From: Clostridiales bacterium
GTDB lineage: Bacteria; Bacillota; Clostridia; Saccharofermentanales; Saccharofermentanaceae
Direction of reading: 5' to 3'
Length of the DNA stretch: 36,558 nucleotides
Assembly: GCA_017649645.1 (NCBI GenBank)
Contig: JAGCGK010000083.1
Span: 1 to 36,558, forward strand
Part shown: positions 4,253 through 34,217 of the stretch, piece after piece
How positions within the stretch are numbered: position 1 is the stretch's first letter
How the letters are laid out: each line of letters starts with the position of its first letter
Notes under the pieces: generated by a model
What the model saw: the letters and a program-made list of their open reading frames with translations, nothing else
Told to the model about the DNA's origin: nothing
Database searches by the model: none
Program-made: the position numbers and the translations under genes

Positions 4253-5362
4253 ATGTTTACCAGTGCAATGGGTCTTATATTGGCCGATAACAAAAAGATT
4301 TCCTTGGGAGAACTCTCGGGCCCTCGTGCTCTCTCTGCTATGCCATTTGCAGGAAGATACAGGATCATCGACTTCGTTCTTTCAAACATGGTTAATTCCG
4401 GTATCAAGAATATCGGTGTTCTTACCTACAACAAGTATAAGTCATTGATGGACCACCTCGGAACAGGTGCTCCGTGGAGTTTGGACAGAAAGAATGACGG
4501 ACTTCACATCCTTCCTCCGTACGTTAACTCGGAGGCAACAAATATCGCAGGCGACGAGGAGATGGCAGGTATCATCGACTTCCTCCGTACATCCAGAACA
4601 ACTTATGTTATCGTCGCTAACAGCAACATCGTTTTGAATACCACATTCGATGACATGATCAAGGCTCACGAGCAGAACAATGCCGACATCACCGTTATGT
4701 ATAACAGAGACGGCACGAAGTTCGGAAGCCCTGCTTATATCCTGGAACTTGATGATGAGGGATTCGTTAAGGACATGCTCTTTAATCCTCAGAAGTCAGC
4801 TTCCAACAAATCAAGTCTCGGTATCATCTGCATCAGAAGAGATCTTCTCATCGACCTCATCGCTAAGCAGATGGCTCACGCTACATCACACTTCGGTGTT
4901 CACTCATTCGTTAAGATGTTCGACGAGTTGAAGGTTTACGGCTACGAGTATAACGGCATCGCATTCAGGATCAATTCCGTAAAGACATACTTCGATGCTT
5001 CCATGAACCTCATCGACGAGTCCATCCGTAACGACTTATTCTGGAGCGGCGAGCCGGTATTTACAAAGATCAAGGACGAGGCTCCGACACTTTACTTCAA
5101 TAACGCTCAGGTATCGAACGCTATCGTATCCGATGGTTGCCGTATCTACGGAAGCGTTGAGGAGTCGGTCCTCTTCAGAGGAGTTACGATCTCCAAGAAT
5201 ACCACGATCAAGAATTGCGTTATCATGCAGGACGCTCACATCTCAGAGAACTGCCATCTCGAGAACGTAATCCTTGATAAGAATGCCATCGTTAGACCTG
5301 GCATCAGACTTGTGGGTCACAGGGATTTCCCTGTAGTTATAGGAAAGGGAGCAGGTATCTGA
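4253..5362 (+). CDS. glgD: GlgD, regulatory paralogue of glucose-1-phosphate adenylyltransferase
   Basis: A 369-residue homologue of GlgC that keeps the fold (RYRIIDFVLSNMVNSGI, then the C-terminal beta-helix). It lacks the GGxGxRL nucleotide loop: where GlgC reads AGGQGSRL, this protein reads ADNKKISLGEL. That loss is the known sign of GlgD, which has little activity alone and raises the activity of GlgC in the heteromer. The N-terminus MFTSAMGLILAD is typical. A ribosome site GGGAGGGAG precedes ATG. The gene sits 19 nt after glgC and only 1 nt separates its stop from the glgA start, so the operon is tight. Confidence 0.94.
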   Translation: MFTSAMGLILADNKKISLGELSGPRALSAMPFAGRYRIIDFVLSNMVNSGIKNIGVLTYNKYKSLMDHLGTGAPWSLDRKNDGLHILPPYVNSEATNIAGDEEMAGIIDFLRTSRTTYVIVANSNIVLNTTFDDMIKAHEQNNADITVMYNRDGTKFGSPAYILELDDEGFVKDMLFNPQKSASNKSSLGIICIRRDLLIDLIAKQMAHATSHFGVHSFVKMFDELKVYGYEYNGIAFRINSVKTYFDASMNLIDESIRNDLFWSGEPVFTKIKDEAPTLYFNNAQVSNAIVSDGCRIYGSVEESVLFRGVTISKNTTIKNCVIMQDAHISENCHLENVILDKNAIVRPGIRLVGHRDFPVVIGKGAGI

Positions 5363-5363
5363 T

Positions 5364-7013
5364 ATGGATAAGATCAAAGTATTGTTTGTATCATCGGAAG
5401 TTAGTCCGTTTGCGAAGGTCGGTGGCCTTGCAGACGTAGTAGGTGCATTGCCTATAGAGCTTAACAAGGCAGGCGTTGACGCACGTGTCATCCTTCCTTT
5501 GTACAGAAAGATCAAGGCAAAGTACAACGAGGAGTTGAGATTCCTCGGCTGGAAGATGGTCCACATGGGTTGGAGATCTTTATATGCAGGTCTCTTCTCT
5601 CTCGAAAAAAACGGCACCACTTTCTACTTTGTAGATAACGAGTACTACTTCAATTTTGACAGTGTTTACGTAGAGTACGTTTTCGATATCGAGAGATATT
5701 GTTTCTTCCAAAGAGCTGTCCTCGATTTCATGGGCGATTTCATGAACTTCGAGCCGAACGTTCTCCACTGTAACGACTGGCAGACAGGTATGATGCCGAT
5801 GCTCCTCGATGCTCACTTCAAGAAGCACGGATATCACACGGATGTTCAGACAGTATTTACTATCCATAACCTTAAGTATCAGGGTGTTCACGCAGTAGAC
5901 GTCGTACGCGACATGCTCGATCTTCCGGATGAGTACATCCGTGACGAGTTCTGTATCAAGGACCGCGCCATCAACTTTATGAAAGCAGGTATCGTTTATT
6001 CGAATTCCGTTACAACGGTTTCTCCGACATACGCTTACGAGATCATGACAGACTACTACGGCGAAGGTCTTAACCAGACATTGCAGCGTTACGCTTACAA
6101 GGTATCCGGTATCATCAACGGTATCAACGATCTCGAGTATAATCCAAAGACTGACGAGAACATTCCTCAGAAGTACGATATCAAGACATTTAAGAAGGGT
6201 AAGGCAGTTTGTAAGGAGTCACTCCAGAAACAGCTCAATCTCGACGTTAACCCGAGAGTTCCTCTTTGCGTTATGATCTCCCGCTTAGTTGACCAGAAGG
6301 GTCTTGATCTTCTCCTTTATGTTCTTGAGGAGATGCTCTATGACGGAATGCAGATCGTTATCCTCGGAACAGGTGACGCATACTATGAGCGCGCTCTCGT
6401 AAGCATCGCTGACCGTAACCCGGGCAAGATGTGTGCCTGCATCGATTTTGACAGCGGACTTGCTCATACGATGTATGCTGCAGCTGATATCTTCCTCATG
6501 CCGAGTATCTTCGAGCCATGCGGACTTTCTCAGCTCGTATCCATGACATACGGTACAGTTCCTGTAGTTCGTGAGACAGGCGGTCTCAAGGACACAGTTA
6601 CACCTTATAACGAGTTCACAGGCGAAGGAAACGGATTCTCATTTGCTAATATCAACGCTCATGAGTTCCTCTTTATCACAAAGTACGCATGTGACCTTTA
6701 CAGGAATCATCCGGACGTATGGGATAACATCATCAAGGCCGGCATGAGCGGAGACTATTCCTGGAAGAAGAGCGCCCTCGAGTATATTGGTCTTTATTCT
6801 CTCATCACGGGCATCCCTTTCGAAAAAGATGTCACGCCTAAGGAAGAAGAAAAGCCTGTAGAAAAGAAGGAAGCTCCCAAGAAGGCCGCAGCAGCTAAAA
6901 AGCCTGCAGCTAAGAAGACGGCAGCAAAAAAGCCGTCAGCAAAGAAGGCTCCTGCTAAGAAAGCTGCTGCAAAGAAGGCCGAAGAGAAGAAGCCTGAAGA
7001 AGAAAAGAAATAA
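5364..7013 (+). CDS. glgA: Glycogen synthase with lysine-rich tail
   Basis: GlgA (GT5 family) transfers glucose from ADP-glucose to the non-reducing end of glycogen. The 549-residue protein has the ADP-glucose loop KVGGLADVVGALP (K18), the HCNDWQTG motif and the C-terminal PSIFEPCGLSQL...RETGGLKDTV block. The enzyme proper ends near residue 490. Residues 493-549 are a tail of AKKP/AAKK-type units flanked by EEE clusters, absent from typical GlgA of about 480 residues. The start is 1 nt after the glgD stop, with no strong ribosome site, which suggests coupling to glgD translation. Confidence 0.95.
   Translation: MDKIKVLFVSSEVSPFAKVGGLADVVGALPIELNKAGVDARVILPLYRKIKAKYNEELRFLGWKMVHMGWRSLYAGLFSLEKNGTTFYFVDNEYYFNFDSVYVEYVFDIERYCFFQRAVLDFMGDFMNFEPNVLHCNDWQTGMMPMLLDAHFKKHGYHTDVQTVFTIHNLKYQGVHAVDVVRDMLDLPDEYIRDEFCIKDRAINFMKAGIVYSNSVTTVSPTYAYEIMTDYYGEGLNQTLQRYAYKVSGIINGINDLEYNPKTDENIPQKYDIKTFKKGKAVCKESLQKQLNLDVNPRVPLCVMISRLVDQKGLDLLLYVLEEMLYDGMQIVILGTGDAYYERALVSIADRNPGKMCACIDFDSGLAHTMYAAADIFLMPSIFEPCGLSQLVSMTYGTVPVVRETGGLKDTVTPYNEFTGEGNGFSFANINAHEFLFITKYACDLYRNHPDVWDNIIKAGMSGDYSWKKSALEYIGLYSLITGIPFEKDVTPKEEEKPVEKKEAPKKAAAAKKPAAKKTAAKKPSAKKAPAKKAAAKKAEEKKPEEEKK
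6840..7010 (+). repeat. Low-complexity lysine/alanine-rich tail of GlgA
   Basis: Codes for the last 57 residues of GlgA: an acidic start (KEEEKPVEKK), about eight AAKK/PAKK units, and an acidic-basic end (EEKKPEEEKK). It is more regular and richer in alanine than the GlgB tail at 2781-2951. The codons vary between units, so this is not a recent exact DNA duplication. Confidence 0.85.
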
Positions 7014-11934: not shown

Positions 11935-12017
11935 TGGTGCGGCCGACGAGACTTGAACTCGTACGGTCTCCCACACGCCCCTCAAACGTGCGCGTCTGCC
12001 TATTCCGCCACGGCCGC
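11935..12017 (-). tRNA. tRNA-Leu (anticodon GAG)
   Basis: The minus strand gives an 83-nt tRNA with acceptor stem GCGGCCG/CGGCCGC, discriminator A and an encoded CCA. The D arm is GGCGGAATAGGCAGACGC, the T-loop is GTTCAAGTC, and the variable arm is long, as in class II tRNAs. The anticodon loop TTGAGGG gives anticodon GAG, which reads CUC and CUU leucine codons. Those codons are very common in the surrounding genes. Confidence 0.96.
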
Positions 12018-23050: not shown

Positions 23051-24196
23051 ATGAAGAAAAAATTACTTTGTTTGGTTTTGACAGCTGCTGTCGGTATGAC
23101 AATGTTCGCAGCTTGTACTAGTTCAGAGAATATTCCTGAGACTTCAGCACCAACAACTGCTGCAGCTAACAACGGCGGAGACACTGGCGAGTCCAAAGAC
23201 ACAGAGGCTGTTGCTGTAGGTAAGAAGGTTGGCGTTTCAATGCCTACTAAGGATCTCCAGAGATGGAACCAGGACGGTTCTAACATGGAAGAGCAGCTCA
23301 AGGCAGCTGGTTACGAAGTAGATCTTCAGTTCGCTTCTAACGACGTAGCTACTCAGGTTTCTCAGATCGAAGCTATGATCAACGGCGGATGTGACGTTCT
23401 CGTTATCGCAGCTATCGAGGGTGATTCTCTTGGTACAGTTCTCGCTACAGCTAAAGAGCAGAACATCCCTGTAATCGCTTATGACCGTCTCATCATGAAT
23501 ACAGATGCAGTTTCTTACTATGCTACATTTGATAACCTCATGGTTGGTACAAAGCAGGGCGAGTACATCAGAGATGCACTTGATCTTGATAACGCAGCTG
23601 GCCCATTCAATCTCGAGATCACAACAGGTGACCCGGGTGACAACAACGCTAAGTACTTCTATCAGGGCGCTATGGACGTTCTGCAGCCATACATCGATTC
23701 CGGTAAGCTCGTAGTTAAGTCCGGCCAGATCGAATTTGATAAGGTTGCTACAGACGCATGGTCAACAGAGAACGCTCAGAACAGAGCTGATACTATCATC
23801 GCTGCTAACTATTCTGACGGATCCAACATCGACGCATGGCTCTGCTCCAATGACTCCACAGCTTATGGTGTAGCTAACTCCCTTACAGTTAACTATTCCG
23901 GTAACTGGCCTATCATCACTGGTCAGGACTGTGATATCTTGAACGTTAAGAACATGATCGACGGTAAGCAGTCTATGTCTATCTTCAAGGATACACGTAC
24001 TCTCGCTTCTAAGGTTGTTGAAATGGTTAACGCTATCCTTTCCGGATCCGAGCCACCGATCAACGATACATCTTCTTACGACAACGGAACAGGTATCATC
24101 CCTTCATTCCTTTGTGAGCCAGTATTTGCTGATATCAATAACTATCAGGAACTCCTTATCGATTCCGGTTACTACACAGAGGCAGATCTTGCTTAA
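23051..24196 (+). CDS. chvE: Sugar-binding lipoprotein of a multiple-monosaccharide ABC importer
   Basis: A 381-residue lipoprotein: signal MKKKLLCLVLTAAVGMTMFA with lipobox AAC, then a Thr/Ala/Gly-rich linker (residues 24-53). The binding domain has VGVSMPTKDLQRWNQDG, QIEAMINGGCDVLVIAAIEG and IAYDRLIMNTDAVSYYATFDN, and ITGQDCDILN follows. This is the ChvE/GguC-like family that feeds MmsAB. It delivers sugars such as galactose, arabinose or xylose to the permease. It has a strong AAAGGAGG ribosome site and a codon usage rich in optimal codons, so it is likely made in large amounts. A stable hairpin separates it from mmsA. Confidence 0.9.
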   Translation: MKKKLLCLVLTAAVGMTMFAACTSSENIPETSAPTTAAANNGGDTGESKDTEAVAVGKKVGVSMPTKDLQRWNQDGSNMEEQLKAAGYEVDLQFASNDVATQVSQIEAMINGGCDVLVIAAIEGDSLGTVLATAKEQNIPVIAYDRLIMNTDAVSYYATFDNLMVGTKQGEYIRDALDLDNAAGPFNLEITTGDPGDNNAKYFYQGAMDVLQPYIDSGKLVVKSGQIEFDKVATDAWSTENAQNRADTIIAANYSDGSNIDAWLCSNDSTAYGVANSLTVNYSGNWPIITGQDCDILNVKNMIDGKQSMSIFKDTRTLASKVVEMVNAILSGSEPPINDTSSYDNGTGIIPSFLCEPVFADINNYQELLIDSGYYTEADLA

Positions 24197-24246
24197 TCTT
24201 TAACTTAACCACCAAACACACAAAAATACTAACTGTTTCAGGATGT

Positions 24247-24272
24247 GCAGGCGGGCATTTTAACCCGCCTGC
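24247..24272 (+). promoter_or_regulatory. Stable RNA hairpin between chvE and mmsA
   Basis: GCAGGCGGG and CCCGCCTGC form a perfect 9-bp GC-rich stem with an 8-nt loop. No T-run follows at once (TATCTTG), so it is a poor full terminator. Hairpins in this position commonly stabilise the upstream binding-protein mRNA or allow partial termination, giving more binding protein than permease. Confidence 0.7.
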
Positions 24273-24302
24273 TATCTTGAAAAAATACTAGGAGGGATAA
24301 AA

Positions 24303-25850
24303 TTGGCTGATATTATACTGGAAATGAAAAATATAACCAAAACATTCCCCGGTGTAAAAGCACTCGATAATGTTAACCTCAAAGTGGAGAGGGGCGAAAT
24401 TCACGCACTCGTTGGCGAGAACGGAGCAGGAAAGTCCACTCTTATGAATGTTTTGAGCGGCATTTATCCTCACGGAACTTATGAAGGTCAGATCATTTAT
24501 AACGGAAAAGAATGTAAATTCAACGGAATCAAAGACAGTGAAGCTATGGGAATCGTAATCATTCACCAGGAGCTCGCATTGGTTCCTTACATGTCGATCG
24601 GTGAGAACATGTTCCTCGGAAACGAGAGAGGTCATGCAGTGAAGATCGACTGGAACGAGACACACAAACTCGCTTCCGAATATCTGAAAGTCGTCGGACT
24701 TAACGAATCATCAAGAACATTGATCAAAGATATTGGTGTAGGAAAACAACAGATGGTTGAGATTGCAAAAGCACTTGCAAAGAAGGCCAAATTACTTATA
24801 TTGGACGAGCCTACATCTTCTCTTAATGAAGAAGATTCCAAGGCACTTTTGGACTTGCTCATTAAGTTTAAGGAAAACGGAATGACTTCCATTATCATTT
24901 CTCATAAGCTTAATGAAGTATCATACGTAGCAGATAAGATCACTGTTATCAGAGATGGTGCCACGATCGAGACACTCGATAAGAAAACAGATGACATCTC
25001 TGAGGGCAGGATCATCAAGGGAATGGTCGGCCGTGAACTTTCTGACCGTTTCCCGAAAAGAGAGAGCCACATCGGCGAAGTTATGTTCGAAGTTAAGAAC
25101 TGGAACGTTTATCATCCTGTCTTCATGGAACGTAAGGTCGTTGATAATGTTTCGATCAAAGTAAAGAAAGGTGAGGTTCTCGGAATCTCCGGACTCATGG
25201 GTGCCGGCAGAACGGAACTTGCCATGAGCGTTTTCGGAAGAAGCTATGGAGAGAACATTACCGGAGAAGTCTTTATCAATGGTAAGAAAGTAGAACTTCA
25301 TAGTGTAGAGCAGGCTATCAAGCATAAGCTTGCCTATGTTACCGAAGATCGTAAGGGTAACGGACTTATCTTGTCTAATCCGATCAAGATAAATACAACT
25401 CTGGCGAATCTTGATGCGGTAAGTACGCATAAGATCATCGATAAAGATAAGGAATACGGTGTAGCTGTTGAGTACAAGGAAAAACTTAAGACAAAATGTC
25501 CTACAGTTAACCAAAACGTAGGAAACTTGAGCGGTGGTAATCAACAGAAAGTGCTTCTTGCAAAATGGATGTTTGCTGCCCCGGATGTTTTGATCCTCGA
25601 CGAACCGACCAGGGGTATCGACGTCGGTGCTAAATATGAGATCTACTGCATCATTAACCAACTTGTAAGCGAAGGAAAATCAGTTATCATGATCTCTTCC
25701 GAGCTTCCTGAGATCCTTGGTATGTGTGACAGGATATATGTCATGAACGAAGGCAGAATAGTTGGCGAGATGATGGGTGAAGACGCAACACAGGAAAAGA
25801 TAATGTCTTGTATTTTACAATCTAGTGCAAAAGGAGAGGCTGCGGTATGA
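24303..25850 (+). CDS. mmsA: Sugar ABC importer, ATP-binding protein with two ATPase domains
   Basis: A 515-residue protein with two fused ATPase domains, as in sugar importers of the CUT2 type. Domain 1 has Walker [10 protein letters not shown], a degenerate signature [13 protein letters not shown], and Walker [12 protein letters not shown]. Domain 2 has a modified Walker [11 protein letters not shown], signature [14 protein letters not shown] and Walker [15 protein letters not shown]. The start is TTG at 24303, placed 6 nt after AGGAGGG; the residue run [16 protein letters not shown] is the usual N-terminus and no ATG is available near it. It overlaps mmsB by ATGA. It powers uptake of sugars bound by the ChvE-type protein. 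Confidence 0.94.
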
Positions 25851-27142
25851 CAACGGCAAACAGTGCACCTAAGAAAAAGGTCGCAAAATCAAAACTTGAT
25901 AGGGATAAGATCCAAGAATTTATAAAGAAATATACAATGGTTTTCGTGCTCGTAATCGTATACGGATTCTTCGCTTGGCGTACTCACGGAACGATCGCAG
26001 CTCCTATGAACATCACGAGCCTTGTTGCACAGAATGCGTACGTATTCATTCTTGCAGTAGGTATGCTCCTTTGTATCTTGACAGGTGGTAATATCGACCT
26101 TTCCGTCGGATCAGTCGTATGTTTCACCGGTGCTATCGGAGCTATGTGTCTCGTTGGCGGCAACCTCCTTGTTCGAAATGAAGAAGGATTGCCTCTTCCT
26201 GTAGTAGTAATAATCATGCTTGGTGTAGGTATCCTGATCGGTGCTTTCCAGGGCTTCTGGATAGCATATGTACGAATTCCTCCATTCATTGTTACCCTTG
26301 CGGGTATGTTGGCATTCAGAGGTTTGAGTAACGTACTTCTCGACGGTAAAGGAATTCCTCTTGCAGATGAGACTTCATTCATGAAGATCTTCGGCGGTGG
26401 TAATGCCTGCTACGTTCCTGACCTGTTCAATATGGGTATATATATTCCTTCTCTCAATATCGTAATCAAGCATTTTAATCTTACTTGCTTCATTATCGGT
26501 ATCGTAGCAGTTTTGATATTCCTTGCTCTTGAGGTAAGAAGCAGACTCGTTAAGAAAAAGAAGGGCTATGAGACAGATAAGCTCTGGGCTTTCATCCTTA
26601 AGAACGGTATCATCGCAGCAGCTATCATCTGGGTATTCTGGAAATTCTCCTGCGATAAGGGTCTTCCTAACGTTCTTATCATCCTCATGGTCGTTATCCT
26701 TTTCTACGGATACCTTACAGGTAACACAACGATCGGACGTTCCTTCTATGCAGTAGGTGGTAACGAAAAGGCTACAAAGCTTTCCGGTATCAACACAAAC
26801 AAGGTTTACTTCATCGCTTACACAAACATGGGTCTTTTGTCCGCTGTTGCTGCTCTCGTAACAATGGCTAGACTTTCATCCGCACAGCCTACAGCAGGTA
26901 ACTCATACGAGATGGACGCTATCGGTTCATGCTTCATCGGTGGTGCTTCTGCTTATGGCGGAATCGGAACAGTTCCTGGCGTTATCATCGGTGCTATCCT
27001 CATGGGTGTTATCAACATGGGTATGCAGCTTATGTCAGTTGACCAGAACATGTGTAAAGTTGTTAAGGGCGGCGTTCTTCTTGCAGCCGTTATCTTCGAC
27101 GTAGTTTCCAAGAGAAGAGGTAAGTTTATAGCAAAGAACTGA
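25847..27142 (+). CDS. mmsB: Sugar ABC importer, permease protein
   Basis: A 431-residue integral membrane permease of the CUT2 (BPD_transp_2) family. It has a cytoplasmic N-terminus rich in lysine ([15 protein letters not shown]), about ten membrane helices, and the conserved segments [27 protein letters not shown] and [19 protein letters not shown]. It is larger than many CUT2 permeases because of a charged insert with extra helices near residues 215-265 ([17 protein letters not shown]), which fits MmsB/GguB. It overlaps mmsA by 4 nt and ends the importer operon. Confidence 0.94.
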
Positions 27143-27170
27143 TCTTCGGGGGTTTATTGTTAATTTGTAC

Positions 27171-27197
27171 AAGGGCGCTTCTTATGGGGCGCCCTTT
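27171..27197 (+). terminator. Terminator of the sugar importer operon
   Basis: AAGGGCGC and GCGCCCTT form an 8-bp stem with a 10-nt loop, followed by a short T-run. It is weaker than the other terminators in the window because the T-run is only three to four bases. Confidence 0.7.
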
Positions 27198-27222
27198 GCA
27201 ATGCTCGAAAAAGGTCAAAGAC

Positions 27223-27250
27223 TTGAAAAAATGTGGTTTCGTGTTATACT
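27223..27250 (+). promoter_or_regulatory. Strong promoter of the polyamine operon leader
   Basis: TTGAAA (27223-27228) and TATACT (27245-27250) are separated by 16 bp, with an extended -10 TGT directly before TATACT. The predicted RNA start is near 27257, about 240 nt before the first start codon, so there is a long untranslated leader. Confidence 0.75.
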
Positions 27251-27256
27251 TTGATA

Positions 27257-27481
27257 GTTAAAACTATTGACCGAATACGGATAAAGAAATCTGTATTTAA
27301 CGCTCGTCGGACGGGGCAGGTCGTGCCGCATGTGGTGTAAAGCACCACGTTTATTAAACTAGGTTGATCCTAATTTTATAAGATGGTTTCTTAAAACCAG
27401 TGCTGATGCGCTACCGAAGAGCAGGTCTTAGTATCATTACTAAGAATCAAAGGCAGTTCATCATAGATGAATTGCTTTTTT
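27257..27481 (+). ncRNA. Structured 5' leader with terminator, candidate riboswitch or attenuator
   Basis: The leader folds by eye into a series of hairpins. Clear ones are AATACGG/CTGTATT (27274-27297), GGCA/TGCC (27315-27327), TGTGGTG/CACCACG (27331-27349), TGGTTT/AAACCA (27384-27399) and CTTAGTA/TACTAAG (27427-27444). The terminator at 27451-27481 comes last, 15 nt before the start codon of the decarboxylase. Stem sequences do not match the riboswitch classes I can recall (lysine, SAM, T-box, guanidine, glycine, c-di-GMP). The position before a polyamine operon suggests control by a polyamine, an amino acid or a related signal. The fold is hand-drawn, and no antiterminator pairing was found by eye. 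It could instead be a stand-alone small RNA. Confidence 0.6.
27451..27481 (+). terminator. Intrinsic terminator inside the polyamine operon leader
   Basis: GCAGTTCAT and ATGAATTGC pair over 9 bp (one G-T) around a 5-nt loop, followed by six T. It lies between the promoter and the first gene, so it must be read through for the operon to be expressed. Confidence 0.85.
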
Positions 27482-27496
27482 GTTTGGAGAAGAAGA

Positions 27497-28945
27497 ATGG
27501 ATCTGGAGAGACAGAAAAAAGCACCTTTATACAGGGCGTTACAGGAATTCAGACGACAGAGAGTCGTTCCTTTTGACGTTCCCGGTCATAAACGTGGAAG
27601 AGGTAATAAGGAACTCGTGGATTTTTTGGGTCTCCAGTGCGTTGAGATAGACGTAAACTCCATGAAGGCTCTTGATAATCTCTGTCATCCTGTTTCTGTT
27701 ATCAAAGAGGCTGAGGAACTGGCAGCTGATGCTTTCGGTGCAAAGCACGCTTTCATGATGGTTGGCGGAACAACAAGTGCTGTTCAGAGCATGGTCCTTA
27801 CAGCATGTAAACGCGGTGAGAAGATCATCATGCCACGTAACGTTCATAAGAGTGCCATTAATGCTCTTATCCTTTGCGGAGCTATTCCTGTTTATATCGA
27901 TCCGAAGGTAGATACGAAGCTTGGCATCCCTCTCGGAATGGAAACGGCAGATGTTAAGAGGGCGATCGAGGAAAACCCGGATGCGAAGGCTATCATGATC
28001 AACAATCCATCTTACTACGGAATCTGTTCGGATCTTAAGGCAATAGTAGATCTTGCTCATAAGAACAATATGCTGGCACTGGTTGATGAAGCTCACGGAA
28101 CACACCTTTATTTCGGTGAGGGACTTCCTCTTAATGCTATGGCCGCAGGCGCTGATATGGCAGCCGTAAGCATGCATAAATCAGGCGGTTCTCTTACACA
28201 GAGTTCCATGCTCCTTATAGGTGAAGGAATAAATGAGGGTTACGTTAGCAACATCGTAAATCTTACTCAGACGACAAGTGCATCCTATCTTCTTTTGGGA
28301 AGTCTCGATATCAGCAGAAGAAACCTTGCACTTAAGGGTAAGCAGAGTTTCGCGAAGGTATGTGAACTTGCTGATTACGCCAGGGAAGAGATAAACGAGA
28401 TCGAAGGCTATTATGCTTTCGGAGCTGAGCTCATAAACAAGAGCAGCGTATATGATTTTGACGTTACAAAGCTCGTTATTAATACCAGAGGAATAGGTCT
28501 TACGGGAATCGAAGTATATGATCTTCTCCGTGAGGAATATGATATTCAAATGGAGTTCGGTGACCTTTCAAATGTACTTGCTTACATTTCGATAGGTGAC
28601 AGGCTACAGGAGATAGAAAGACTCGCGGGAGCTCTTAATGATATCGCGAGACTTTACTCAAAGCCTACGGGAGATTTCTTCTGCGCAGAGTATGTTACTC
28701 CGATAGTCAAGGCTACTCCTCAGGAGGCTTTTTATGCTGAAACTGAAAAGCTTCCAATCGATCAGACGATCGGCAGGATATGCGCTGAGTCGGTTATGTG
28801 TTATCCGCCGGGAATACCGATCCTGGCACCTGGTGAGATGATCACCAAGGATATTCTTGATTACATTAATCTCGCTAAGGAAAAGGGCTGTTCAATGCAG
28901 GGCCCGGAGAGTGAGGATATCTCAGAACTATACGTTTTGAAATAA
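27497..28945 (+). CDS. speA: Orn/Lys/Arg decarboxylase, probably arginine decarboxylase
   Basis: A 482-residue PLP enzyme of the short Bacillus SpeA/YaaO type, lacking the N-terminal wing domain of the large enterobacterial forms. Start MDLERQKKAPLYRALQEFRR, then PFDVPGHKRGRG. The PLP lysine is K228 in AVSMHKSGGSLTQSS; DEAHGTHL and GGTTSAVQ are also present. Arginine as substrate is inferred from the agmatine-processing genes aguA and aguB downstream. ATG 27497 follows GGAGAAG by 7 nt; the longer frame from 27467 begins in the terminator and is rejected. It is the first gene of the polyamine operon and is controlled by the leader upstream. Confidence 0.88.
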   Translation: MDLERQKKAPLYRALQEFRRQRVVPFDVPGHKRGRGNKELVDFLGLQCVEIDVNSMKALDNLCHPVSVIKEAEELAADAFGAKHAFMMVGGTTSAVQSMVLTACKRGEKIIMPRNVHKSAINALILCGAIPVYIDPKVDTKLGIPLGMETADVKRAIEENPDAKAIMINNPSYYGICSDLKAIVDLAHKNNMLALVDEAHGTHLYFGEGLPLNAMAAGADMAAVSMHKSGGSLTQSSMLLIGEGINEGYVSNIVNLTQTTSASYLLLGSLDISRRNLALKGKQSFAKVCELADYAREEINEIEGYYAFGAELINKSSVYDFDVTKLVINTRGIGLTGIEVYDLLREEYDIQMEFGDLSNVLAYISIGDRLQEIERLAGALNDIARLYSKPTGDFFCAEYVTPIVKATPQEAFYAETEKLPIDQTIGRICAESVMCYPPGIPILAPGEMITKDILDYINLAKEKGCSMQGPESEDISELYVLK

Positions 28946-28957
28946 GGAGGGATTAAG

Positions 28958-29830
28958 ATGGCCGGAAACGATATGGAATTTTGGTTTGAAGAGATGCACA
29001 CGAACAATGTGAAGATGTCTATTCGAGTTAACCAGCATCTGTATAGCGGTACGAGCGAGTTTCAGAGGATCGATGTTTTTGATTCTCCTGAGTTCGGCAA
29101 GTTCTTAACTTCTAACGGTAATGTTATCTTTTCCGAACAGGAAGAGTTTACTTATGACGAGATGATCGTTCATGTTCCTATGGCAGTTCATCCTGACGTC
29201 AAGCGCGTACTCGTTATCGGTGGCGGTGACGGAGGCGTAGCCAGAGAGCTCTCTTACTATAAAGAGATCGAAGTTATCGATATCTGCGAACCGGATAAGA
29301 TGTTCGTGGATGTCTGCCGTAAGTTTTTCCCTGATAATGCGATCGGTCTTGAGGACGTACGCGTAAGGATCTACTACGAGGATGGCCTCAGGTTCCTTCG
29401 TAAGTGTAAGGATAAGTACGATCTTATCATCAATGATGCAACTGATCCTACGGGTCATGAGGCAGGTCTTTTCACAAAGGAGTTTTACGGCAACTGCTAT
29501 AAAGCTTTACATGATGACGGAATCATGGTATATCAGCACGGAAGTCCTTTTTTCGATGAGGATGAAGAGAACTGCAGGGCGATGCACAGAAAGGCTGTTA
29601 AGTCGTTCCCGGTAATGAAGGTCTATCAGGCAAATATCCCGACATGTCCGTCAGGATACTGGCTTTTCGGATTTGCTTCTAAGAAGTATCATCCTATCCG
29701 TGATTTTGATCCGAAAAAGTGGGAGGATCGCAAGATCAAGACCTGGTATTACACCACACACTTACACTCGGGTGCATTCATGCTTCCGAAATATGTTGAA
29801 GATATGTTGATCGAAGAAGAGAAAGAATAA
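28958..29830 (+). CDS. speE: Spermidine synthase-like aminopropyltransferase
   Basis: A 290-residue aminopropyltransferase fold: N-terminal beta domain, then a Rossmann domain with GGGDGGVAREL (88-98) and the catalytic aspartate D160 in INDATDPTG. SpeE moves an aminopropyl group from decarboxylated S-adenosylmethionine to putrescine. The conserved YHE/YQE segment reads YDE here (EEFTYDEMIVHVPM). No gene for S-adenosylmethionine decarboxylase (speD) lies in the window, so its donor must come from elsewhere or differ. It sits 12 nt after the decarboxylase gene with AAGGAGGG as ribosome site. Confidence 0.86.
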   Translation: MAGNDMEFWFEEMHTNNVKMSIRVNQHLYSGTSEFQRIDVFDSPEFGKFLTSNGNVIFSEQEEFTYDEMIVHVPMAVHPDVKRVLVIGGGDGGVARELSYYKEIEVIDICEPDKMFVDVCRKFFPDNAIGLEDVRVRIYYEDGLRFLRKCKDKYDLIINDATDPTGHEAGLFTKEFYGNCYKALHDDGIMVYQHGSPFFDEDEENCRAMHRKAVKSFPVMKVYQANIPTCPSGYWLFGFASKKYHPIRDFDPKKWEDRKIKTWYYTTHLHSGAFMLPKYVEDMLIEEEKE

Positions 29831-29844
29831 GGAGGAACGTATAA

Positions 29845-31103
<1,259 letters not shown>

Positions 31104-31107
<4 letters not shown>

Positions 31108-32231
31108 GATACGAAGAATTAAAGACACCTTCATATATCGTGTCTGAAAAGGCGCTTCGAAAAAACCTCGAGATCTTAAAGGATGTCGAGGTAAGATCGG
31201 GCGCCAAGATACTTCTTGCCCAAAAAGCATTTTCGATGTTCCGCGTTTATCCTTTGATAGCCGAGTACTTAACCGGTACGACCGCTTCAGGCATCTACGA
31301 GGCAAGACTTGCTCATGAAGAGATGAATGGCAGGGAAAATCACGTTTTCGAGCCGGCATATAAGGATGACGAGATGGAGGATATCTTTAATATCTGCGAT
31401 CATGTCTACTTTAATTCCATGTCGCAGTTTAATCGTCATCTTCCTTCTATTCGAAATCATGAGGATGTTAAGATCGCACTTCGCATCAACCCTGAATTCT
31501 CGACTCAGGAAGGCCACGAGATCTATGATCCGTGCTCGCCTTCATCACGTCTCGGTATAAGGCTTAAGGATATGCCCGAAATCCTTCCGAAGGAAGTATC
31601 TGGTCTTCATTTCCACACGCTCTGCGAGCAGGGATTTGAGCCGTTGAAGGCTACGTTCGATGTGGTAGAAAAGAAATTCGGTAAGTACTTCAAGGACATA
31701 AGATTCATCAATCTCGGCGGCGGTCATCACATAACCAAGCCTGATTATGATGTGGACGGACTTGTGGAGCTTATCAAGTACATCAAGAAAACATACGATC
31801 TCGATGTGTATCTCGAGCCGGGCGAAGCTATCGCTCTTGATGCGGGATACCTGATCACCGAGGTCATGGATATCGTCGATACAGGAGACGTTCCTACGCT
31901 CATCCTGGATGCGTCCGCGGCATGTCATATGCCTGACGTATTGGAGATGCCGTATTTGCCGCTTCTTATCGATTCTGACGCGAACGGCATTAAAGTCCGC
32001 CTTGCATCAAGAACTTGTCTTGCAGGCGACGTAATAGGCGAATACGGGCTTAAAACGATGCCGAAGATAGGAGACCGCCTCACATTCGGTGACATGGCCA
32101 TCTACAGCATGGTCAAAAACAACACGTTTAACGGAATGCCTCTTCCTGACATCGTTCTCGAAAAAGAAGACGGCGATTACGAATTGGTCAGAAGATTCGG
32201 TTACTCAGATTTTAAGGAGCGTTTGTCCTGA
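31104..32231 (+). CDS. nspC: Carboxynorspermidine/carboxyspermidine decarboxylase
   Basis: A 375-residue PLP enzyme of the alanine-racemase fold. The N-terminal barrel holds the PLP lysine K41 in ILLAQKAFSMF. The segment HFHTLCEQGFEPL and the glycine loop NLGGGHH bind substrate and phosphate. The C-terminus ends RRFGYSDFKERLS, a family signature. It removes the carboxyl group from carboxyspermidine to give spermidine. Its start overlaps the synthase stop (ATGA) and its stop shares a base with the aguA start (TGATG), so translation is tightly coupled. Confidence 0.92.
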
Positions 32232-33334
32232 TGGTTAGATTTCCGGGAGAATTCGAAAAGCATAGCGCCACACTCATGATCTGGCCCGTAAGGCCCGGAA
32301 GCTGGGGCAAGGATCCTTCAGCTGCCCAAAAAGCTTTTATCAGTATCTTTGAAACGATACTTAAAAGCGAAGATCTCTATGTTCTTTTCAACAATAATGA
32401 GCCACAAAAGACCATCGATGATCTTTCATCAAGATTCGAAGAACTTCCTTATAACTTCATACCGCTTAGGATAGATTCCAACGACTCATGGGCAAGAGAT
32501 GTCGGACCTACTTTTGTCTTGGACGATGATGAGGTCTTGGGCATCGACTGGAGATTCAACGCCTGGGGCGGAGATTATAACGGCCTTTATCAGGACTACG
32601 ATCTTGATAATAAAGTTGCTTCCGTTTTCTGCAGTAAGATCGGAAAGAATTTCATTGACCGACAGGATTTTATCCTTGAGGGAGGTAGCATAGCAACCGA
32701 CGGGGAAGGCACGCTGATGGTCACGGAGACTTGCCTTTTAAGCCCGGGAAGAAACTGCGATCTTTCTCGTGAAAATATAGAGGGCTATCTATGTAATGCT
32801 CTGGGTGTCAAGAAGGTATTGTGGCTCCCGTTCGGAATATATAACGATGAAACTGATGAGCACGTTGATAATGTGGCAGCCTTTGCCGGACCGGCAAAAG
32901 TGGTTTTGGCATGGACGGATAATATAGATGATCCTCAATATAAAATGTCTAAGGCCTGCTACGATTATCTGAGCTCAGTAACAGACTGTAAGGGACGAAA
33001 GATCGAGATAATCAAACTTCCTATCCCTGATAATCCGGTCCTTATCGAGAAGAAGGATATGGCTAATCTTGTTTTCGAAGAAGGCGAAGATAACAGGGAA
33101 GAAGGAGAAAGACTTGCTGCAAGCTATGTGAATTATTACTATACAAATGATTCCATACTTATCCCGCAGTTTGGCGGCAACAACGCCGAATCAGACAGGA
33201 GAGCAGTTGAGATAATGGAATCTGTAAGTTTCGGAAGAAAGGTTGTTCCTATATACGCCAGAGATATCCTCGTTGGAGGAGGAAACATACACTGTATCAC
33301 TCAGCAGATACCGAAGGTAAAGAAGGAGGGATAA
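32231..33334 (+). CDS. aguA: Agmatine deiminase
   Basis: A 367-residue agmatine deiminase of the guanidino-group-modifying fold. It converts agmatine to N-carbamoylputrescine and ammonia. Motifs: SNDSWARDVGPTF, GSIATDGEGTLMVTE, DEHVDNVAAFAGP and the nucleophile C355 in GGGNIHCITQQ. It begins with the A of the nspC stop codon. Together with aguB it turns agmatine, the product of arginine decarboxylase, into putrescine. Confidence 0.95.
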   Translation: MVRFPGEFEKHSATLMIWPVRPGSWGKDPSAAQKAFISIFETILKSEDLYVLFNNNEPQKTIDDLSSRFEELPYNFIPLRIDSNDSWARDVGPTFVLDDDEVLGIDWRFNAWGGDYNGLYQDYDLDNKVASVFCSKIGKNFIDRQDFILEGGSIATDGEGTLMVTETCLLSPGRNCDLSRENIEGYLCNALGVKKVLWLPFGIYNDETDEHVDNVAAFAGPAKVVLAWTDNIDDPQYKMSKACYDYLSSVTDCKGRKIEIIKLPIPDNPVLIEKKDMANLVFEEGEDNREEGERLAASYVNYYYTNDSILIPQFGGNNAESDRRAVEIMESVSFGRKVVPIYARDILVGGGNIHCITQQIPKVKKEG

Positions 33335-33335
33335 T

Positions 33336-34217
33336 ATGTCCAAGATCAAGGTTGCTGCAGTTCAGATGAACTGTTCAACAATAGTAAGTGAGAATATTGA
33401 AAAAGCTGAAAAGTTTGTCAGAAAGGCTGCAGAAGAAGGTGCAAAAATCATATTGTTGCCGGAACTTTTCGAGAGGCAGTATTTCTGTCAGGAAAGAAGA
33501 TATGAATACTATGATTTCGCCAAGAGCGTCGATTCAAACGATGCGGTCTGTCACTTTAGGAAACTGGCGGCGGAGCTGGATGTTGTAATACCCGTAAGCT
33601 TTTACGAAAAGGATGGAAATGTTCTTTATAACTCGGTAGCTATGATAGACAATAAAGGCGAGATCTTAGGAGTCTATAGGAAGACGCATATACCTGATGA
33701 TCATTTCTACCAAGAAAAATTCTACTTTACTCCGGGCAATACGGGATTTAAGGTGTTTGAGACGGAATACGGAAAGATCGGTATAGGTATTTGCTGGGAT
33801 CAGTGGTTCCCGGAAACAGCCAGATGTCTCGCTTTAATGGGCGCGGATATCATCTTATATCCGACTGCTATCGGTAAAGAGCCTATCCTTGAAGTAGACA
33901 GCATGGGCCATTGGTCAAGGACGATGCAGGGACATTCCGCAGCCAATATAGTACCCGTAGTAGCAGCTAACAGAGTAGGAAACGAGAAGGTTGTCCCTTG
34001 TAAGGAAAACAACCAACAAAATAGCGAGCTTACGTTCTACGGAAGCAGTTTCTTAACTGATCATGTCGGAGAAATACTTGTTCAGGCAGGAAGGGAAGAA
34101 GAGACGGTAATATTCTCCGAATATGACTTTGATTCAATAAAAGAAGACAGATTGTCCTGGGGTCTGTTCAGAGACAGAAGACCTGAAACTTATAAGTTGA
34201 TCAGTGACAATAAATGA
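33336..34217 (+). CDS. aguB: N-carbamoylputrescine amidase
   Basis: A 293-residue nitrilase-superfamily amidase. The Glu-Lys-Cys triad is visible: E43 in LLPELFERQYFCQ, K116 in YRKTHIPDD, and C153 in GIGICWDQWFPE. It hydrolyses N-carbamoylputrescine to putrescine, carbon dioxide and ammonia. It starts 1 nt after the aguA stop, with GAAGGAGGG as ribosome site inside the aguA end. It is the last gene of the operon and is followed by a strong terminator. Confidence 0.95.
   Translation: MSKIKVAAVQMNCSTIVSENIEKAEKFVRKAAEEGAKIILLPELFERQYFCQERRYEYYDFAKSVDSNDAVCHFRKLAAELDVVIPVSFYEKDGNVLYNSVAMIDNKGEILGVYRKTHIPDDHFYQEKFYFTPGNTGFKVFETEYGKIGIGICWDQWFPETARCLALMGADIILYPTAIGKEPILEVDSMGHWSRTMQGHSAANIVPVVAANRVGNEKVVPCKENNQQNSELTFYGSSFLTDHVGEILVQAGREEETVIFSEYDFDSIKEDRLSWGLFRDRRPETYKLISDNK

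Follow-up and report, generated by a model that had tools for sequence, protein, structure and literature searches.

The DNA analysed here, a window of 36,558 nt from a Clostridiales bacterium, carries a six-gene polyamine operon on the forward strand and, directly before it, a structured leader RNA. The operon begins with an Orn/Lys/Arg decarboxylase gene (27497..28945; PF01276, 6.5e-72). This is followed by speE (28958..29830; NF002010, above cut-off), a gene for a carboxynorspermidine synthase-like protein (CASDH; 29845..31107; NF043000 at 404 bits, below the cut-off of 800), nspC, encoding carboxynorspermidine decarboxylase (31104..32231; TIGR01047 at 422.6 bits, cut-off 409), aguA, encoding agmatine deiminase (32231..33334; TIGR03380, above cut-off), and aguB, encoding N-carbamoylputrescine amidase (33336..34217; TIGR03381, above cut-off). 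The first gene is predicted to encode an arginine decarboxylase, based on the gene context and on SP_0916, the gene behind the pneumococcal F59 leader. Just upstream of the leader, positions 23051-27142 encode what is by sequence a sugar-type ABC transporter (binding protein, ATPase and permease), after which there is a hairpin near 27163-27205. The sole ARAGORN match in the window was a tRNA-Leu (gag) at 11935-12017 on the minus strand.

A sigma-70 type promoter occupies 27223..27250 of the forward strand, with TTGAAA at 27223-27228, a 16-nt spacer and an extended −10, TGT-TATACT, whose −10 element lies at 27245-27250. The strong extended −10 promoter described in an earlier note on this DNA is therefore present as sequence, but by count alone it is no better than chance: the region of 901 bases contained one promoter-like site versus 1.6 in shuffles, which is not significant alone, and one terminator-like site versus 0.7. 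In sister leaders, TATACT or TATAAT occurs at the same place. Judging from the promoter, transcription would start at ~27257 and yield a leader of ~225 nt (27257..27481, forward strand). The leader ends in an intrinsic terminator with a U tract (27449..27481; arms 27449-27462 and 27466-27479, T tract to 27481), 15 nt upstream of the decarboxylase ATG at 27497, and GGAG at 27486..27489 is the probable ribosome-binding site. The segment 27257-27481 folds at −81.1 kcal/mol versus −48.4 ± 3.9 in dinucleotide shuffles (z −8.3), and none of 200 shuffles folded as well. The excess persisted without the terminator (27257-27448; z −5.5, 0/200 shuffles) and in 27296-27414 alone (z −3.1, 1/200). The coordinates and the fold thus confirm the architecture proposed in the note, namely a promoter, a structured RNA of ~225 nt and a terminator 15 nt before the decarboxylase. 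A further hairpin, UCUUAGUA/UACUAAGA (27426..27445), resembles in position the AGAGU...ACUCU pairing of the wider RNA family described below. A leader peptide was considered and rejected: nine small ORFs overlap 27240-27500 and, by eye, none is arginine-rich or placed as a leader peptide would be.

To follow the leader through relatives, we used both the DNA and covariance models. Searching 59 relatives with the leader DNA recovered, besides the window, three close leaders and, in a fourth genome, a short match. A covariance model built from five window-type leaders, R2, identified the leader in 9 of 85 genomes of the genus; a search of 188 genomes from the order added no others, so that one genus out of 30 was positive. 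None of the nine R2 genomes had a match to R1, a model of the core of the wider family. Across 59 genus genomes, a leader was present in all 29 that have an ortholog of the decarboxylase (at least 66% identity; R1 in 24, R2 in 5) and in none of the 30 that lack one. Within the subtype, a near-invariant block extends from UUUAACGCUCG to CUGAUG (27296..27408, 113 nt in the window). Pairs of five species differed at 2-13 of 113-117 positions of this block (2-11%) versus 38-77% of the four-fold degenerate sites of their decarboxylase genes. The leader is more than a chance structure: 9 of 85 genus genomes retain it, and it changes at a much lower rate than four-fold sites. We conclude that it is a real, selected, cis-acting RNA.

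The subtype structure combines a side domain resembling Rfam family SpF59_sRNA with a rearranged set of core helices. The 5′ strand of P2 in the side domain, GACC at 27269..27272, was assigned by alignment with a bridging locus, L166, and the sister leaders; its partner is GGUC at 27319-27322, and in alternative folds of the sister leaders a later GGUC takes this role. P3 (27273..27298; 27273-27282 with 27289-27298) covaries within the subtype, both sides changing with the pairs kept. A closing helix, P1′, joins GC.CGUCGG (27302..27310) to CUGAUG.GC (27403..27411) according to RNAalifold on alignment A3, in which its pairs are invariant in five sequences. Between these strands lie the P4 hairpin, GUGGUG...CACCAC (27331..27349), found identically in L166; an extended P6 hairpin, UUAU.AAA.UAGG/CCUA.UUU.AUAA (27351..27381), with UAGG/CCUA in the window versus UGGG/CCCA in sister species; and the P8 hairpin, UGGUUU/AAACCA (27384..27399). 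The strands of this P6 are P5-5′ and P7-5′ of the wide family, which in the subtype pair mutually as one long helix, and the new helix P1′ shuts the block. As most other pairs of the block are invariant, they are uninformative either way on pairing. Conservation of the stems in relatives, a check set beforehand, was borne out by the low divergence of the block and by covariation in the wide family.

In Rfam searches, the window gave no match at the gathering threshold and none to RF02440 (SpF59_sRNA, ldcC RNA; gathering score 37.2 bits) at E values up to 10. By contrast, sister leaders before the orthologous gene matched RF02440 at 58-70 bits in four of the six loci scanned (L014, L006, L016 and L021). 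The description of the RNA as unclassified thus stands for the window and lapses for its sisters: the proposed Infernal check gave a significant match in relatives only. By the membership test, the window is a relative of RF02440 and not a member. No other Rfam family, including the SAM family (RF00162), matched in the window or at the leaders scanned; the variant SAM-I riboswitch for spermidine was set aside as a candidate on this result, noting that the Rfam SAM model may miss rare variants. Rfam likewise gave no match to speF in the window. The rnk_leader family (RF01771) reached 22.2 bits (cut-off 50, E 0.17) over 27388-27488 only, with the resemblance strongest around AGUAUCAU; this and three other loose-threshold matches in the window were treated as chance.

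Across the phylum, the RF02440 model matched 17 of 398 genomes, which belong to 12 of 267 genera; of the 14 named genomes used as controls, Lactococcus lactis had a match. Reading the loci individually revealed that this 54-nt model adjoins a better conserved core of ~150 nt. A core pattern blind to genes, CTTGTGAAN{1,5}TCAATAAGAGTRGTAAA, retrieved at least 120 stretches in named genomes, and the taxa among the matches listed included Paenibacillus, Bacillus, Heyndrickxia, Acetobacterium, Faecalibacterium, Candidatus Blautia, Ruminococcus and Lachnospiraceae. RF02440 had no match at any of 14 selected core loci (L166 and 13 judged to lack the 54-nt domain), so the Rfam piece is an optional side domain. 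At L054, L064-L066, L072 and further loci, RF02440 accounts for no more than this side domain of a larger RNA. The core model, R1, had 24 matches in the 398 genomes (18 of 267 genera), a count not independent of the model: nine or more of these places also occur in its own alignment, A2, and L183 repeats L144.

Alignment A2 was obtained in two steps. A first cut, defined by the SpF59 side domain and a 3′ AGACTCT, retained 93 of 155 loci. Inspection of the 62 that were lost revealed that not every leader carries the side domain; in some, the 3′ motif or contig ends were the cause. A final cut via P5 kept 140 of the 155 loci and lost 15. This gave 67 non-redundant cores of 110-170 nt, from which nine without a full P8/P9 (L050, L056, L063, L098, L136, L146, L152, L155 and L170) were dropped, leaving 58 sequences. 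Seven Ruminococcus-type speD leaders (L063, L068, L103, L132, L136, L152 and L170) have, by eye, short cores without P8/P9; in leaders of this type, the terminator arm (e.g., ACAGGCUG) directly complements CAGCUUGU.

In A2, whose 58 cores are among the matches listed, changes on both sides of a pair occurred in 6/6 pairs of P4, 2/4 of P6, 3/4 of P8 and 4/4 of P9, the last being paired in only 62-70% of cells. Overall, 91.6% of cells were paired versus 36-49% with the partners slid. P5 (UUAUUGAU/GUCAAUAA) and P7 (UUUUAUAAGU/ACUUGUGAAA) were nearly invariant; the invariance of P5-3′, P7-3′ and GAGURGUAAA is partly ascertainment, because 120 loci came from an exact pattern. A second alignment, A6, comprised 24 sequences that had been retrieved through protein, Rfam or R1 searches; some of them also match the pattern. 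Here 91.1% of cells were paired and 20 pairs changed on both sides versus 9.8 in shuffles (0/500), in an alignment that was fitted to the model structure and so leans towards it. Covariation in A6 was thin for P5 (three pairs changed on both sides) and P7 (one pair). The test of P1 was weak: 11 of 88 leaders fell in the best 5% of swapped upstream sequences and 27 of 88 beat at least 95 of 100 shuffles, with single cases looking clear.

The window itself, like G062 and G028, had no R1 match up to E 10, and P5 and P7 are unrecognisable in these three; the window does not qualify directly as a class member, for which R1 would have to align P4-P9 together with the conserved 3′ strands. Sister leaders L009 and L010 matched R1 at 23.7 and 22.4 bits (E 0.0011 and 0.0023), aligned through the P7-3′ and P5-3′ positions. 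The connection to the class is provided by L166, from Ruminococcaceae bacterium UBA4871, which joins a window-type side domain and P4 to a complete core 3′ half and scored 82.5 bits with R2. Two other loci, L041 and L037, scored 33.1 and 28.8 bits. As the window's own minus strand scored 25.2 bits, the noise level, R2 matches at or below this value are no evidence by score. Through L166, the window is related to the wide class by homology through an intermediate, and it lies directly before a polyamine gene with a terminator before the start codon, as in the class. The window RNA is therefore best read as a divergent subtype of a widespread class, of which SpF59_sRNA would be one optional domain. 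In L166, Rfam also identified SAM and FMN riboswitches at 4487-4588 and 5447-5583 of the minus strand, less than 2 kb from the polyamine leader and on the opposite strand.

To examine the genes behind the class, we used 135 loci, 120 of which came from the gene-blind pattern, and a reference set of nine polyamine genes. Six loci were cut off too early. In all 129 readable loci among the matches listed, the nearest of these reference genes lay on the strand of the leader and began 129-526 nt past the core motif; because only reference genes were used, a small gene in between is possible. Six of the 135 loci are duplicates of another locus across the 120 nt surrounding the motif, and with identical stretches counted once the result was 124/124 among the matches listed. 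L051 and L053, missed by the script pattern and left out of the 129, are both speD loci (as L191 and L190). Among the matches listed, the nearest reference gene was the decarboxylase in 43 loci, speD in 40, CASDH in 28 and potA in 18; potB came next in 14 of the 18 potA loci and the contig was cut off first in four. The speD reference scored above its NCBIfam cut-off, and the potA (query cut at 300 aa) and potB references scored below theirs, with spermidine/putrescine transporter families as the best match. All 24 R1 matches in the 398 phylum genomes precede a decarboxylase, speD or CASDH gene.

These data bear on the nature of the RNA. The pneumococcal F59/SN20/srn235 RNA is labelled a small RNA, having been described as a separate transcribed region and catalogued as an sRNA in the literature sections available, and Rfam types the family as 'Gene; sRNA'. 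A trans-acting role is nevertheless very improbable: in every readable locus among the matches listed, the RNA is followed by a polyamine gene of the same orientation, it is absent from all 30 genus genomes in which the gene is absent, and a terminated leader would likewise appear as a separate RNA.

They also bear on the ligand. The earlier note considered a polyamine, arginine or a related compound to be a natural signal. The polyamine theme is now better supported, since relatives of the RNA also precede speD, the carboxynorspermidine synthase gene and potA; for the same reason arginine has become an unlikely ligand, CASDH and potA being nearest at 28 and 18 loci, respectively. The genes of the class make spermidine via two routes (SpeD-SpeE and CASDH-NspC), supply its precursor or import it, such that spermidine is the simplest common signal, with putrescine next. 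A riboswitch that senses a different compound of the pathway (arginine, agmatine, putrescine, decarboxylated SAM or MTA) would suit the arginine-type decarboxylase that opens the window operon and the 40 loci, among the matches listed, at which speD is nearest. CASDH and potA use neither arginine nor SAM, however, and spermidine is the only compound on which all four gene sets converge, by synthesis or by import, with putrescine as the strongest alternative. We regard a ligand from this list as quite unlikely.

In 147 of 149 leaders among the matches listed, all but L090 and L145, a terminator lies between the core and the start codon; dinucleotide-shuffled versions of these regions had one in 25% of cases. 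The 5′ arm of the terminator frequently contains CAAGU or CAGG, sequences complementary to ACUUGUG of P7-3′, and the complementarity may extend into P9-3′, as in L040 (GCAAGUGUGAUGAUGCGCA against UGCACAUCAACUUGU). In 64 of 100 non-redundant leaders among the matches listed, the P9-3′/P7-3′ segment was the best complement of the terminator 5′ arm, in competition with ~48 other segments each. In the controls, 37 of the 100 leaders outscored every one of 50 shuffles, and 15 ranked within the top 5% of swapped arms, where 5 would be expected. These controls are less sharp partly because the terminator arm is itself conserved, and the test was weakened because the script took an upstream hairpin as the terminator in a few loci (L042, L047, L158 and L171). 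One full-type leader, L020:1285-1459 (G074; R1 34 bits), apparently lacks the core 3′ half between P9 and the terminator, possibly through loss of the switch or an assembly fault.

In the subtype, the 3′ strand of P1′ and the bases following it, GAUGCGCURCC, complement GGCAGUUCAU(C) of the terminator 5′ arm, and GGCAGUUCAU is invariant in eight aligned leaders, including that of the window. The pairing was strong in G001 and G017, where 0 and 1 of 200 shuffled arms were as good. In the window, G062 and G028, the corresponding numbers were 52, 41 and 47. The candidate antiterminator strand of the window, GAUGCGCUACC (27405..27415, forward strand), would pair with 27452-27462; it does not rise above shuffles, and another segment scores slightly above it. 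The switch in the window is accordingly deduced from its relatives. By computation, then, we observed a conserved fold, covariation, gene association and terminators, with arm complementarity in the wide family and in two sister species.

The arrangement suggests how the RNA may act. At high levels of a polyamine, spermidine being the likeliest, the conserved fold would close and hold its own 3′ strand: ACUUGUG of P7-3′ and the neighbouring P9-3′ in the wide family, or CUGAUGCGC of helix P1′ in the subtype. With this strand held, the terminator would form before the start codon and transcription would stop. When the polyamine is scarce, the 3′ strand would instead pair with the terminator 5′ arm as an antiterminator, and the operon would be read. 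This predicted direction is that of an OFF switch. The window subtype may alternatively have lost the switch, its leader being merely constitutive or degenerate; the missing recognisable P5-3′ and P7-3′ strands and an antiterminator no better than shuffled arms would fit such a loss. We consider it improbable, as the 113-nt block has diverged by 2-11% versus 38-77% at four-fold sites, the GGCAGUUCAU stretch is unchanged across the aligned leaders and the subtype is kept in nine genomes.

Termination could also be governed by a regulatory protein that reports polyamine status and binds the conserved RNA, in place of an aptamer. With its length and its strong sequence conservation, invariant strands included (in part an effect of ascertainment), and with an aptamer role that is a prediction, the class would agree with a protein-binding RNA. 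No regulator is found among the six window genes, however, and optional side domains around a minimal core, with a switch strand shared with the terminator, are typical of riboswitches. Protein-mediated attenuation thus appears unlikely. We judge instead, at a probability of roughly two in three, that the window leader is a cis-acting transcription attenuator responsive to polyamines, probably spermidine, and a divergent subtype of a widespread class.

By extension from the sequence comparisons, RNAs of the class probably turn off genes for making and importing polyamines in many Gram-positive bacteria when polyamines are plentiful, which would explain the joint control of synthesis and import. 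We see even odds for a bolder proposal: that the class is an overlooked spermidine riboswitch, unrelated in structure to the SAM-I-derived one and missed because the catalogued part, labelled a pneumococcal sRNA, is only its side domain. Both spermidine routes and polyamine import would be under its control across the Bacillota. The genus of the window would have a rearranged form of it, two core strands pairing mutually instead of with the missing 3′ strands and ligand preference possibly altered; such a subtype would illustrate the rebuilding of a core in front of an unchanged gene. Found in 24 of 398 sampled phylum genomes and as at least 120 stretches in named genomes, the class is a concrete and common candidate. 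Together with the clean gene associations, this makes the question of a polyamine riboswitch directly testable. A family for the ~150-nt core would be needed beside RF02440, and the catalogued 'sRNA' could be re-read as a cis switch.

Published data on the pneumococcus are relevant here. In the portions available of the reports concerned, F59, also named SN20, srn235 and Spd_sr49, is a transcribed region of 318-327 nt (82 nt as F59) between SP0915 and SP0916 that precedes the arginine decarboxylase gene SP_0916 (PMC3395615, PMC12323649, PMC2887815, PMC7531197; identity of SP_0916 as arginine decarboxylase, PMC7531197); one paper guessed that it is an FMN switch. As excerpted, one study found that deletion of potABCD in S. 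pneumoniae lowered intracellular polyamines and raised speA 16.9-fold and speE 14.4-fold by qRT-PCR, whereas RNA-seq detected no differential expression of either gene (PMC8540371); its qRT-PCR thus supports feedback and its RNA-seq does not. In another, likewise as excerpted, an inhibitor of polyamine transport raised operon genes 1.4-1.9-fold by RNA-seq and three of them 2.4-3.3-fold by qRT-PCR (PMC10887117). The available portions of these pneumococcal papers contained no link between the polyamine response and the F59 leader. In the main texts of the open-access literature, as far as these were available, the SAM-I variant was the only polyamine riboswitch of this kind that we found. The accessible parts of PMC8632094, PMC11109978, PMC6429828 and PMC11477304 name no such leader, and we found no ligand-binding or termination experiment on an RNA of the window type or class in the open-access literature.

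Three known systems invite comparison. The closest is RF02440: sister leaders match it at 58-70 bits, and the pneumococcal region before SP_0916 has a length near that of full-class leaders. It differs in that Rfam models the 54-nt side domain alone and types it 'Gene; sRNA'; the pneumococcal RNA was compared here by its published description. The Salmonella speF leader, as far as described in the accessible part of PMC6386406, similarly provides leader control of a polyamine decarboxylase gene, but that work deals with arginine levels and an inducible ornithine decarboxylase of an enteric bacterium. Finally, the SAM-I-variant spermidine riboswitch is, in the sections of PMC10853860 available, an OFF switch that terminates transcription and is associated with speE, speB, speD and ldcC genes. 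It resembles the class in its predicted mode of action and in its polyamine genes, but it is a different RNA, a variant of the SAM-I aptamer with 13 aligned representatives. The same sections call earlier claims of polyamine riboswitches unconvincing and state that more classes seem certain to remain undiscovered, a description that the RNA class reported here may come to fit.
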